Assembly: GCA_009885995.1 (NCBI GenBank)
Contig: VFJQ01000023.1
Coordinates: 62,001-126,000 of the forward strand
Direction of reading: 5' to 3'
From: Verrucomicrobiota bacterium
Lineage (GTDB): Bacteria > Verrucomicrobiota > Verrucomicrobiia > Chthoniobacterales > Chthoniobacteraceae
Length of the DNA: 64,000 nucleotides
Part shown: positions 6,111 to 13,867 of the stretch, piece after piece
Numbering within the stretch: position 1 is the first letter of the stretch
How the letters are laid out: each line of letters begins with the position of its first letter
The notes under the pieces: model-generated
Seen by the model: the letters and a program-made list of their open reading frames with translations, nothing else
Database searches by the model: none
Told to the model about the DNA's origin: nothing
Program-made: the position numbers and the translations under genes

Positions 6111-7513
6111 AGCTGCCGGAGTCGGTATGCGCTCGCGGTGATGGCGATGAGAAATCCGCCGACCGGCAGGAAGCTGCCGCCGAGCCACGCGGTGCCTGCG
6201 GCAGCCACGAAGCCAGGAATGAGTCCCAGCAGCGGGAGAGCCCACACTTGCCAGACACTCTGCCCGAGATGGCGAGCGATCCGAAGGGCGACCGGAGTTA
6301 GCGCGAGGCTGCCGAGAGTGCCAGAGACGAGGATTCCAGCGACGCCGATGTGAGGGACGAGAACCACGGAGCCGCTGAGGATCACGGCGACTTCTCCGAG
6401 GCCCCACAGCGCCGCGACGTGGGTAAGCGCCACGCCCATGCAGGCGGTGAGCAGCACGCGGTGAAAGCTGGCTGCGAGTCCGAACGTGCCGACGAGGATG
6501 GCGAGGGACGGATCGTTCAGCGGCAGCTGCAGCCAGCGGCCGAGCACGAGTGGACCGAGACAGGCGAGACCCGCGAAGGCGACCAGACACATCGCGGCGG
6601 AGTAGGAATACGACGCGCGGAAATTTGTCGCGCGGGATGGAGCGTCTGGTAGCGCAGCGAGATCGGCGGTCGATGTGTCGCTAGCGTTTGCGCCGAAGAC
6701 GCTCACGAGTTCACTGAGCTTGAGCAGGATGAAGTAGGTGCCCGCCGCAGCGGGGCCGAGGAGCGCGCCAGCGAGGAAGGTGAGAAGGTAGCTTTTGAGC
6801 AGCGACTCCGTGGCGGTGAGCGCAAACCAGCGACCGGCGTAGATGCTTCGGAAGAGACCCGCGGGGCTGATCGCGCCAAGCGCGCGCGGGAGCGCGGCGA
6901 GCTCGGCTGAGCGGAAGACGAGCGCGCACCCGAGATTCGGGATCGCCAGCGAGAGAGCGTAGCCGAGAAAGCAGCCGTTGGCCGAGGAACCTGTCGCAAC
7001 CAGACCGAGCACGACGGGGGTGGCGAGTGCATTGCCGATGAAGGCGGAGGCCTTCACTTGCGACAGCCGGCCACGGGCGGCAAGCGGCTCGAGCAGCAGC
7101 ATCGAGAAGCCGCACGCGCTGCTGCCGAGTAGCGCGACGGCGAGCAAATGGCCGTCGCTCCTCGTCCATCGCTGCCACAGTCCGCTCGCTGCCACGATCG
7201 CGCCGAGCGCGGCGAATGAGGCAAGCAGACCGAGATAGTGACCGAGTGCTTCGGCGAGTGAACGGTTGCCGGCTGTGGATTCGGTCTGCGCCGTGAGTCC
7301 GCTCAGCGCGATGCGGAGGCGGATGCGCAGCCCGAAGTCGAAGCTCAGGACGCATGCCATCGCCGAGAGCGCGAGTGCGAGGAAGCCATAGCCTTCGGTG
7401 CCGAGCCGGCGGAGCAGCACGGGCGTGACGAGAAAAAAGAAGAGCGCCTTTGCGATCGTGCTCAGCGTTTCCCACCACTGGTTGAGCGTGAGTTCACGCT
7501 GTTGCGATCGCAT
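6041..7513 (-). CDS. Polysaccharide biosynthesis flippase (MATE/Wzx-like)
   Basis: 490 aa, many TM segments; N-terminus NQWWETLSTIAKALFFFLVTPVLLRRLGTEGYGFLALALS typical of Wzx-type flippases; overlaps the convergent GT4 gene by 70 bp. Confidence 0.83.
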   Translation of the reverse strand: MRSQQRELTLNQWWETLSTIAKALFFFLVTPVLLRRLGTEGYGFLALALSAMACVLSFDFGLRIRLRIALSGLTAQTESTAGNRSLAEALGHYLGLLASFAALGAIVAASGLWQRWTRSDGHLLAVALLGSSACGFSMLLLEPLAARGRLSQVKASAFIGNALATPVVLGLVATGSSANGCFLGYALSLAIPNLGCALVFRSAELAALPRALGAISPAGLFRSIYAGRWFALTATESLLKSYLLTFLAGALLGPAAAGTYFILLKLSELVSVFGANASDTSTADLAALPDAPSRATNFRASYSYSAAMCLVAFAGLACLGPLVLGRWLQLPLNDPSLAILVGTFGLAASFHRVLLTACMGVALTHVAALWGLGEVAVILSGSVVLVPHIGVAGILVSGTLGSLALTPVALRIARHLGQSVWQVWALPLLGLIPGFVAAAGTAWLGGSFLPVGGFLIAITASAYRLRQLQISGALSINSRTSAEVRPPTCR

Positions 7514-8342: not shown

Positions 8343-9629
8343 TTACTGGTTTGGCTTCCACATTTGCAGCGGCATCGCGAGGGCGCCGGGGACGGGGTCG
8401 TAGATGTGGCCGGCGACGAAGAGCTTGCGGTAGCTGTGCAGTTCGGTGGCGCAGACGAGGAGCACGGTGCTGGTGAGTGCGGCGGTGCGGAAACGGGGCG
8501 CGAGTTTTTCCGCGAACGCGGCGAGGAGGCTGTAGGCGAGCCAGCAGAGCGGGAGCGCCCACATGGCGCCGTAGCGCATGTTCATGCCGTAGCGGACTTG
8601 GGCCATGCAGGCGTAGGAGATGAGGAGGAAGAGGGCGAGATGGCGCTTGGCGGGGTCGCTCCAGCGCGTGCCGCCGAGTGCGGCGATAGCGAGGAGGGTG
8701 ATGGCGGGGCTGACGAGGAGGAAGTCGAGGATGTAGCGGTGCCACGGGCCGTCGCCGGTCTTGAGGGCGTAGGGGAGGAGGACGGATTTGGTGGCGTTGA
8801 GGCGGTAGGCTTCGAGGAGCGGCGCGAGGCCGCCGGCGGCGAGGATGAGCAGGCCGGCGCCGAGCGCGGGCGCGGCGAAGGTGACGAGGAGGAGCGGGCG
8901 GGTGACGGTGCCAATGCGCAGCCAGCGATTGAGCGCGACGATGCCGAGGAGGGCGGCGTAGGCGAAGGCGGCGTTTTCTTTGGTGATGACCATCGCGATG
9001 AGCGCGGCAGCGTAGAGCGCGAGCCAGCGGCGATCGTTCGGTGCGCGCAGGCTTTCCCACAGACCCCAGACGGCGAGCAGGGCGGTGAGGGCGAAGAAGC
9101 CGTCGATGAGCGCGCGGTGGGCGAGGTGGATGAGCAGCGGTGAGCAGGCCAGAAAGGCGGTGACGGCGAGTGTCGCAGCGGGGCTTGTCGTGGAAGCGAC
9201 GCCCTCGTCGCTTTGGAGTGGAGTTGAAGCGGCGGGGCGCCGCTTCCACAGGCCGAGGCGGGAGACGAAGACGGCGCCGAGGAGGAGCGTGGCGATGGAG
9301 GCGGCCCAGGAGATCCGGCGGAGGGCTTCGAGGGATTCGCAATCGGTGAGTTCGCGCACGAGGTGGGCGCTGCCGAGGAAGAGGATGCGGGTGGGCGGTA
9401 GGACGGTGTCTTTGCCGACGGTTTTGCGGCCATGCTTTTCGTCTTCGATGTAGCGGGCGATCAATTGCGGCCAGCCGCGGAGGCCGGAATTGTCGAGAGC
9501 GGTGACGTATGCGGCGCAGAAGCCTTCGTCGGAACCGACATAGGTGCGGTCGATCGGCCTCGGCAGGCGCAGCCAGCCGCCAAATGCGATGATGAGGATG
9601 AGCAGTGCAGCGGTCGCTCGGGCGGGCAT
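8343..9629 (-). CDS. GT39-like membrane glycosyltransferase with an in-frame palindromic insert
   Basis: MPARATAALLILIIAFGGWLRLPRPIDRTYVGSDEGFCAAYVTAL...HRALIDGFFALTALLAVWGLWESLRAPNDRRW, paralogous to 9629..10882 and 12650..13867. Confidence 0.78.
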   Translation of the reverse strand: MPARATAALLILIIAFGGWLRLPRPIDRTYVGSDEGFCAAYVTALDNSGLRGWPQLIARYIEDEKHGRKTVGKDTVLPPTRILFLGSAHLVRELTDCESLEALRRISWAASIATLLLGAVFVSRLGLWKRRPAASTPLQSDEGVASTTSPAATLAVTAFLACSPLLIHLAHRALIDGFFALTALLAVWGLWESLRAPNDRRWLALYAAALIAMVITKENAAFAYAALLGIVALNRWLRIGTVTRPLLLVTFAAPALGAGLLILAAGGLAPLLEAYRLNATKSVLLPYALKTGDGPWHRYILDFLLVSPAITLLAIAALGGTRWSDPAKRHLALFLLISYACMAQVRYGMNMRYGAMWALPLCWLAYSLLAAFAEKLAPRFRTAALTSTVLLVCATELHSYRKLFVAGHIYDPVPGALAMPLQMWKPNQ

Positions 9630-10882
9630 CAGCGGCTCGGGGGTTCCTTGATGATCTTGAGGGCCTGAAACAAGGAGACGGGGGAGGGCTCGTAGATGGC
9701 GCTGTCGATGAAGAAGATCCGGAACTGGCGGAGGTCGTAGGCGCACACGGCGCTGAACAGGACGACGGCGACGATGGCTGCCCGGCTCCCGGCGCGCAAG
9801 GCGAGGGCGATGAGCTGGGCGGCGGCAAATGCGGTCAGCGGGAGCGCCCAGATGGTCGTGTAGCGGAGATTCATGCCGTAACGGACATTGCACATGATGA
9901 GATAGCTGAGGGCAACGAAGCCGAGGAGGAAGAGGTAGGGGCGCCGTTCCGCGGGTAGTGTGAAAATGCCGCTGAGGGCGAGGAGCAGGACCAGCGGATC
10001 GAGGGTGAGCAGTTCGATCAAGTAGCGGTGCCAGGGGCCGTCGCCGGTGGCGATCGCGTAACCGAGGGTTTGGGCTTTGGTGACGAGGGTGCGGTAGATT
10101 TCCACAAACGCCTCGATACCTCCGGCGAGGGTGACGAGGACGAGGAGTCCGGCGAGCGGGCCGAGCACGCCCACGAGGATGAGGGGCCGGGTGGTGGCGC
10201 CGAATTTGGCCCATCGGTTTGCGACGACGAGGCCGCAGAGAGACACATAGACGAAGAAGGCGTTTTCTTTCGTCGTGACCATGAGGGCGAGCGCGAAGCC
10301 GAGGGCGGTGAGGCGCCGCCAATCGTTGGGGCGCTGAAGATTCTCCCAGAGCAGCCACAGGCAGAGCGTGGCCCAGAATGCGAAGAAGCCATCGATCAGC
10401 GCGTGGGCACCCATGTGGACGGAGAGCGGCGAGGCGGCCATGAGCGCCATCGCGCCGAGGCCTACGGGCGGGCCGAGCATGCGCCACGCGGCGAGGCCGA
10501 TGAGGCCGACGCTGAGGATGGAAAACGCGCACGATACCCGGCGCAGGGATAGCCACGCGGGGTCGCGGGTCGCTGCAGCCGGGCCATCGACGCGTGGGGT
10601 ATCGCCGAAGGTCGCGTGCTTCACGACCCAACTCGTGAAGATGTAGAGGAAGCGCGTGGGCGGGAGCTTGGCGATCGAGCGTGGGTCGCGTTGATCCTCG
10701 ATGTAAACCTGCGCGATTTGTGGATAGCCGCTCAGGCCCACCTTATCGAGCATGGTGATGTATTTGGAATAAAGCGCTGCATCCGGCCCGATGCCGCGGA
10801 AGCTCGGCTCGGAGGCGAGCCGGAAAACTGCACCGAGGAGGAAGATGACTGCGGCGGCGATATACGGGAGGCGTGATTTCAT
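9629..10882 (-). CDS. GT39-like membrane glycosyltransferase
   Basis: MKSRLPYIAAAVIFLLGAVFRLASEPSFRGIGPDAALYSKYI...GAHALIDGFFAFWATLCLWLLWENLQRPNDWRRL; ATGA overlap with the downstream paralog. Confidence 0.8.
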   Translation of the reverse strand: MKSRLPYIAAAVIFLLGAVFRLASEPSFRGIGPDAALYSKYITMLDKVGLSGYPQIAQVYIEDQRDPRSIAKLPPTRFLYIFTSWVVKHATFGDTPRVDGPAAATRDPAWLSLRRVSCAFSILSVGLIGLAAWRMLGPPVGLGAMALMAASPLSVHMGAHALIDGFFAFWATLCLWLLWENLQRPNDWRRLTALGFALALMVTTKENAFFVYVSLCGLVVANRWAKFGATTRPLILVGVLGPLAGLLVLVTLAGGIEAFVEIYRTLVTKAQTLGYAIATGDGPWHRYLIELLTLDPLVLLLALSGIFTLPAERRPYLFLLGFVALSYLIMCNVRYGMNLRYTTIWALPLTAFAAAQLIALALRAGSRAAIVAVVLFSAVCAYDLRQFRIFFIDSAIYEPSPVSLFQALKIIKEPPSR

Positions 10883-12649: not shown

Positions 12650-13867
12650 CTACTTCAAGACTTTCACCGCGCGCAGCGTCTCGGCGGGAGTGAGCGCGTA
12701 GGTCGGGGAATCGACGGTGAAGATGACATATTGATTGAACTCGAAGAGCACGAGAGCGGCGGTGGCGAGCAAGGTCGCGAGCCGCGCGCGAGGACCGAAA
12801 CGCTCGCAGAAGGTGAACAACCCCGCGGCGGCGAGGAGGCGCAGCGGCATGTCCCAGATCGTCGTGTAGCGCAGGTTCATCCCGTATTTGAGGTTGGCCA
12901 TCATCGCGAAGGTAAGGCCGACGAAGAGGAGGAGGAAGAGCGATGGTTTGTCGGCAGCGCGGAGATGAAATGCGCGGCCGGTCGCGAGCAGGACGAGCAG
13001 CGGGCTGACCAGCATCAATTCGACGAGATAGCGATACCACGGCCCGTCGCCGTTCACGATCGCGAACGGGACGGCGTGCGACTTCGTGACGAGGAGGCTA
13101 TAGATCGCGATGAAGACATCGAGCCCGCCTGCGAGAAAGACGAGGCTCACGAAACCCAGCAACGGGCCGGCGAGCGTGAGGAGCAGCAGCGGCTTGGTGA
13201 TCGTGCCGAAGTGCAGCCAGCGGTTCGCGAGCAGGAGGCCGCAGATTCCGGCGACGACGAAGAAGGAGTTTTCCTTGGTCATCACCATCGCGGCGAGGCT
13301 CGCGGCGTAGAGCGTCATCCACAGCAGTCGGCCGGGTTGTTGCAGGTTTTCCCACAGGCTCCAGAGCGCGAGGAGGCACCAGAATGTGAAGAAGCCATCG
13401 ATCATCGCGTGCTGGGATTGATGGACTTGATTCATGGCGACGCTCATCAGCGCGGTGACCGCGAGTGCGAGGCCCGGTCCGGCCAGACGGCGCGTGAAAC
13501 CAGCCGTCAACGCCAGCACGAGTATGCTGAAAAGCGCGGAGGTTTTCACGAGGGACGCATAGAGATCGGCCCCTGTGGTCGCCCGCCACAGGTGCGCGCA
13601 GTAGAGGTAGAGAAATCGCGTCGGGGGAGGGATGGCGGAGGAGTCCTTGCTCTGCTTCATGAGGTAAACGAGGCAGTTCTCGGGGTAGTCGAGCAGGCTG
13701 TGCCGGTCGAGATAGCTGAGGTGATGGACGTAGATGTGTTCGTCGAAGCCGCGGCTTTTGAATGCCGCCGAAGGCACCAGTCGGAGCACGGCGCCGAGCA
13801 GGAGGATCAACGCGAGAGCGGACCAATAGAGGCGTGGTGAGATCGAGCTGTGGTTTGCCGGAGGCAT
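12650..13867 (-). CDS. GT39-like membrane glycosyltransferase
   Basis: MPPANHSSISPRLYWSALALILLLGAVLRLVPSAAFKSRGFDEHIYVHHLSYL...HAMIDGFFTFWCLLALWSLWENLQQPGRL. Confidence 0.8.
   Translation of the reverse strand: MPPANHSSISPRLYWSALALILLLGAVLRLVPSAAFKSRGFDEHIYVHHLSYLDRHSLLDYPENCLVYLMKQSKDSSAIPPPTRFLYLYCAHLWRATTGADLYASLVKTSALFSILVLALTAGFTRRLAGPGLALAVTALMSVAMNQVHQSQHAMIDGFFTFWCLLALWSLWENLQQPGRLLWMTLYAASLAAMVMTKENSFFVVAGICGLLLANRWLHFGTITKPLLLLTLAGPLLGFVSLVFLAGGLDVFIAIYSLLVTKSHAVPFAIVNGDGPWYRYLVELMLVSPLLVLLATGRAFHLRAADKPSLFLLLFVGLTFAMMANLKYGMNLRYTTIWDMPLRLLAAAGLFTFCERFGPRARLATLLATAALVLFEFNQYVIFTVDSPTYALTPAETLRAVKVLK

Follow-up and report, generated by a model that had tools for sequence, protein, structure and literature searches.

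A GT39/PMT-like gene of the window (the whole 64,000-nucleotide stretch of Verrucomicrobiota DNA analysed here) carries in its reading frame a 60-nt inverted repeat, which is a REPIN, that is, a pair of inverted REPs, and which belongs to a new family of this known kind of element. Taken overall, the best explanation, to which we assign a probability of about 0.85, is an in-frame REPIN of a genome-specific family whose likely mobiliser is a RAYT transposase embedded in the chaperone ClpB. Directly observed here are the element, its family, the in-frame positions, the phase bias, the empty sites, and the RAYT inside clpB with matching REPs. Previously, both the tolerance of in-frame palindromes and the location of their mobiliser had been open questions, and this one genome combines frame conservation, a linker-coding phase, absence from the sampled relatives, and a likely transposase within a chaperone gene.

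The coordinates of the element, its host gene, and the associated features are collected in Table 1. The terminal 15-nt arms of the palindrome (9190-9204 and 9235-9249) are 93% complementary, and those of the first REP unit (9194-9201 and 9206-9213) fully so. When folded, the strand has a predicted energy of -47 kcal/mol as against -31.4 +/- 3.5 kcal/mol for shuffled versions (z -4.4), with 1 of 200 shuffles folding equally well. Inverted units of 23-24 nt with outward-facing GTGG heads and a spacer between them together make up the anatomy of a REPIN, and the ends of the window copy are also those of the genome-wide family (BLAST query 6-65). A conventional MITE with target duplications and a tandem repeat were both considered for the palindrome and rejected.

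Table 1. Positions of the REPIN, its host gene and paralogs (window coordinates), and of the REPs next to the clpB RAYT (locus coordinates)
Feature	Position	Strand	Description and basis
REPIN, pair of inverted REPs	9190..9249		60 nt, in frame; minus-strand peptide LWKRRPAASTPLQSDEGVAST
REP unit 1	9190..9213	+	GTGG head and palindrome AAGCGACG-CCCT-CGTCGCTT
Spacer between the two REPs	9214..9226		13 nt; varies among copies
REP unit 2, inverted	9227..9249	-	GTGG head and AAGCGGCGCCCCGCCGCTT
Host gene, PMT/GT39-like membrane glycosyltransferase	8346..9629	-	428 aa including insert; PF02366 E 6.5e-6; homologs
Paralog 1, empty site	9632..10882	-	RM|LGPP; alignment
Paralog 2, empty site	12653..13867	-	RL|AGPG; alignment
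REPs bordering the PF01797 domain of clpB	L062 5239-5320 and 5914-6007		REP search and Pfam

The original prediction, made from the window's sequence alone, had described a palindrome inserted in frame and, in the two neighbouring paralogs, the corresponding empty sites; both parts held. The position, reading frame, insert peptide, and flanks that it gave were all confirmed, and the absence of the insert from both paralogs was confirmed by the three-way alignment it had asked for; a paralog segment of equivalent length, the outcome it had named as refuting, was not found in that alignment. Moreover, the GT39-like protein has 27 residues where all 19 others compared (the two window paralogs and 17 aligned homologs from related genomes) have five, and the net gain of 22 residues (66 nt) is accounted for by the 60-nt element and two codons beside it. 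Empty sites in relatives were examined in full for GT39, ClpB, and AlaRS only. In the mechanism we propose, the two head-outward inverted REPs would act as one mobile hairpin that inserted into the GT39-like gene, adding about 22 residues between two membrane helices, and the insertion would have survived because the element is devoid of stop codons and the frame was kept.

As for the location of the insert in the protein, it falls between predicted hydrophobic helices (residues 109-127 and 151-169), and an extramembrane loop is therefore likely. The topology check that had also been suggested thus leaves the loop idea plausible, though the AlphaFold model, built from three sequences with a pLDDT of 44, draws the insert as unstructured between helices and is too poor to prove anything. 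The window copy is itself atypical, being the sole phase-2 member among 26 intragenic copies (it reads WKRRPAAS) and being bordered by C and A, where the family usually has G and C. Possibly, the positive charge of the WKRRPAAS segment is tolerated in a membrane-protein loop, but this is inferred.

What the original prediction had overlooked is that the element recurs about 35-fold in the genome; the REPIN identity, the 35-member family, and the ClpB-embedded transposase all go beyond its claim. When the element was searched by BLAST against the genome that carries it, 77 hits at about 40 places were obtained, almost all with precisely the extent of 9190-9249, and a two-arm pattern search found 26 places versus none in the reversed control. 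Altogether, we counted about 35 REPIN copies, each of which pairs two inverted units of 23-24 nt, GTGGAAGCGRCG(CCCn)CGYCGCTT, whose GTGG heads point outward; the spacer between them measures 8-48 nt in the majority of copies. The defining feature of a REP, a GTRG head beside a short palindrome, is met in nearly all copies (GTGG-AAGCGRCG...CGYCGCTT), and so are the features of a REPIN, namely dispersed head-outward inverted pairs and a RAYT domain in the same genome flanked by the same REPs. One usual trait, a predominantly extragenic location, is not met (26 of the 35 copies are intragenic); extragenic preference is a usual property of REPs and REPINs and not part of their structural definition.

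The family was not found in 39 other genomes of the same bacterial family, and a strict REPIN pattern run over GTDB genome contigs likewise gave no hits, although this genome may itself have been left out of that scan. A same-family pattern match in genome G017 was dismissed as chance, and genome G030 holds a single copy of a sister repeat that does not belong to this family. At locus L109 of G030 (G030:C2, near 6247-6355), a PurL-like protein (VFDVAATPSSPSVAAAPSPRGDASDE...) contains an in-frame sister REP pair, so that the pattern recurs there with another REP sequence.

For gene calling, a codon model derived from this genome was combined with Pfam and PDB homology, without full annotation, and for a few copies near gene starts or ends the placement relied on homology or on the start position. 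On this basis, 26 of the 35 copies have coding sequence on both flanks in the same strand and frame and are themselves free of stops, and no out-of-frame, gene-interrupting copy was seen among the intragenic ones (26/26 in frame). Since the lengths of these 26 elements are spread over the three remainders modulo 3 (9/10/7 for 0/1/2), it is the bases next to the element that restore the frame. By homology, the hosts include CarB, MnmA, methionyl-tRNA synthetase (MetG), a MiaB-like radical SAM protein, aldehyde dehydrogenase, and PSD1 proteins, and by Pfam phosphoglucomutase, sulfatases, and GT9; a further host, recognised from its sequence only, we take to be MoaA. Aconitase carries two REPINs, both of which face gaps or unalignable stretches in human IRP1. 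That the open frames are an assembly or pseudogene artefact, or stay open merely from high GC, is all but excluded. High GC does give rise to long spurious antisense ORFs, but the host domains on both sides of the inserts match Pfam or PDB families within one ORF, neither flank has abnormal codon scores, and the transposase fusions described below occupy an identical site in several species. Separately, the REPIN-bearing proteins of loci L039 (MetG), L058 (GT9), and L045 have extra low-complexity inserts (EAGSREQGAGREQEAGS, NSQLPIPNSQPQS, and NAEGAKGTEERREGT) that resemble further repeat families read in frame.

The intragenic copies are read predominantly in one phase (6/19/1 for phases 0/1/2; p 5e-5 versus uniform), and this favoured phase gives GGSGAPPL...SGGAPLPP or ...SGEGAAST, a flexible linker of the GGSG type. 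An insertion-site preference could produce such a bias without any selection on the peptide, and the adjoining bases are indeed constrained, with G before the element in 30 of 35 copies and C after it in 29 of 35. We nevertheless regard this rival as unlikely, as the phases also depart from a G^C target model (expected 9.5/7.9/8.7, p 6.5e-6) and from a G^N model (p 0.003). Selection on the peptide would thus be the preferred reading: out-of-frame insertions would be removed, and among the in-frame ones the phase encoding Gly/Ser/Ala/Pro linkers would be favoured. An unusual and strongly selected in-frame coding life style is then likely for the family, with the selection inferred on the assumption that insertion is random in frame, and that the host proteins work is inferred too, there being no protein activity data. 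Alternatively, the hairpin might be a regulatory RNA or DNA element (an attenuator, or a gyrase or mRNA-stability site) with coding as a by-product. For this speak the very stable predicted hairpin and the assignment of such roles to REPs elsewhere (PMC3733652). Against it, the copies sit at unrelated positions in unrelated genes and are confined to one species among 40, and an RNA role would not call for the conserved frame and preferred coding phase that they show; hence, we consider this alternative very unlikely.

For the mobiliser of the REPINs, the proposed candidate is a RAYT (HUH-type Y1 transposase, PF01797) that would be translated in frame in clpB between two REPINs of the window family. 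The clpB-RAYT gene is one ORF of 1103 aa, residues 2-506 and 772-1094 of which align to ClpB (PDB 6dju), with ClpB also identified by Pfam. Within it, the RAYT is recognised by PF01797 (37.5 bits) and has intact HVHVL (HUH) and YVRRNP (Tyr) motifs, and its match to TnpA-REP (PDB 4er8) is weak (E 0.008). In this genome, the stretch of 45 codons ahead of the RAYT core contains no ATG, GTG, or TTG, and the RAYT is therefore apparently translated solely as a segment of ClpB. A single further ClpB-like match is present in the genome, at C15; with 45-50% identity, it represents a second Clp-type family that is common to most relatives.

A probable role of the clpB-embedded RAYT as mobiliser of the roughly 35 REPINs is inferred, with no experimental data on REP cutting, transposition, or expression. 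It could be instead that another RAYT, such as the free-standing second one at C16, moves the REPINs in trans and that the clpB RAYT is carried along without activity or is a relic in decay. In support of this, the genome has seven further PF01797 matches, and the ClpB-RAYT of genome G026 has lost its Tyr-Asn-Pro motif and sits on a long branch. However, among the eight PF01797 domains only that of clpB is flanked by this REP, which borders it on both sides and was not found within several kb of the other RAYT loci fetched. Furthermore, the clpB RAYT keeps its HUH and Tyr motifs and is under purifying selection in three species (G000, which is this genome, G030, and G033; dN 0.19-0.23 versus dS of 0.9 or more), and we consider this rival unlikely.

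The ClpB-RAYT fusion is found at the same site in four other species, namely G030, G033, G026, and, from another family, G364. These have REP-type flanks of their own sequence, with terminal inverted repeats in G030, G033, and G026, and all of the ClpB RAYTs group together in a single clade (100/100). The fusion is scattered among relatives that lack it, G033 being sister to the empty G032 and G026 to the empty G027. Because the ratio of RAYT to ClpB identity is uneven (66% and 69% shared residues between G000 and G364, but 68% and 86% between G000 and G030), lateral arrival of the RAYT at the same ClpB site is suggested, with losses and rate changes not excluded. In G026 (locus L081), the fusion that has lost the Tyr-Asn-Pro motif is still in frame, and conceivably the transposase is dead there while the host gene stays open.

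Searches for RAYTs at the level of family, phylum, and class revealed further long ORFs with Pfam host domains on both sides of the transposase, comprising AlaRS, RecG, ThrRS, ValRS, LeuRS, CarB, HsdR, and an NspC-like decarboxylase, with DinG-type helicases, SNF2, and methyltransferases added by reading of the flanks. The insertion position is the same in different genera for AlaRS, RecG, LeuRS, and the DinG type, and AlaRS is a single gene in the carriers examined (the G026 and G119 copies are split by contig ends). Thirteen RAYTs in AlaRS, RecG, and ThrRS group as a single clade (100/99) in which, as sampled here, every member is embedded (13/13) and none stands alone. At the class level, the RAYT lies in an ORF of more than 380 aa at 17 of 27 loci, though a few of these ORFs are unconvincing as hosts, and free-standing RAYTs of 200-300 aa also exist. 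A bolder reading, toward which we lean only slightly, is that of protein-embedded REPtrons: in bacteria of the Verrucomicrobiota type, RAYTs and REP ends would be translated as in-frame domains of essential single-copy proteins (ClpB, AlaRS, RecG, ThrRS, LeuRS, ValRS, and CarB), partly without a start codon of their own, and would reuse identical sites, undergo clean loss or homing-like transfer, and seed non-autonomous in-frame REPINs like that of the window. Homing-like site reuse, host protein function, and mobilisation are all inferred here and not shown experimentally.

Several known systems come close. In Opitutus terrae, GTAG/GTGG REPs occur inside ORFs with the highest intragenic count among the GTAG families (Di Nocera et al. 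2013, PMC3733652). Like the window family, these have GTGG heads, are often in head-outward pairs, can be intragenic, where they encode 20-30 residues, and belong to Verrucomicrobia; in contrast, they are mostly intergenic and the window family mostly intragenic. That paper also establishes RAYT-REP units (REPtrons), with RAYT genes flanked by REPs, and we found in it neither a statement of a RAYT in frame inside a host gene nor a phase analysis. Rickettsia palindromic elements similarly are in-frame palindromes in many unrelated proteins, but RPE-4 and RPE-6 have a CGTC tag and no known transposase (PMC3733652), and membership was rejected for the window family given its GTGG head and cognate RAYT. 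The REPINs and RAYTs of Pseudomonas, E. coli, and others likewise pair two inverted REPs as a hairpin with an HUH Y1 transposase, though most REPINs there lie outside genes and the transposase is encoded by a free-standing gene (PMC8049555, PMC8266576), unlike the intragenic and embedded arrangement here. One RAYT-type enzyme cuts a GTGG-headed REP variant at CC (PMC8266576), with which it may be compared that elements of the window family mostly end in ...CCAC followed by C.

Inteins, too, resemble the embedded RAYTs in being extra in-frame domains at recurrent sites of essential proteins with a patchy distribution, but their embedded enzyme is a homing endonuclease and not a single-strand transposase. 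An intein identity was rejected, as Pfam scans of the fusions showed no Hint or other splicing-domain family. In-frame and intragenic REPs are already published, and the more novel part is the RAYT in clpB and other essential genes, for which no report was found in the open-access literature searched. If true, this would amount to an intein-like life style without splicing, in which the embedded element could be lost only by clean removal because it lies inside genes that the cell needs, and natural domain-insertion sites would be supplied in AlaRS, RecG, LeuRS, and ClpB.

Two additional observations concern proteins of other genomes. The AlaRS of G030 (locus L173) has a second in-frame insert at residues ~896-951 (SGRVGVPPAGLGILPERSSE...) with many matches elsewhere in G030, which represents a different repeat class that also decorates proteins. 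Lastly, at loci L264 and L266 (genomes G354 and G334), one and the same small gene, D-aminoacyl-tRNA deacylase-like, has a RAYT joined at its 3' end, and this fusion type, seen in two species, is C-terminal and not internal.
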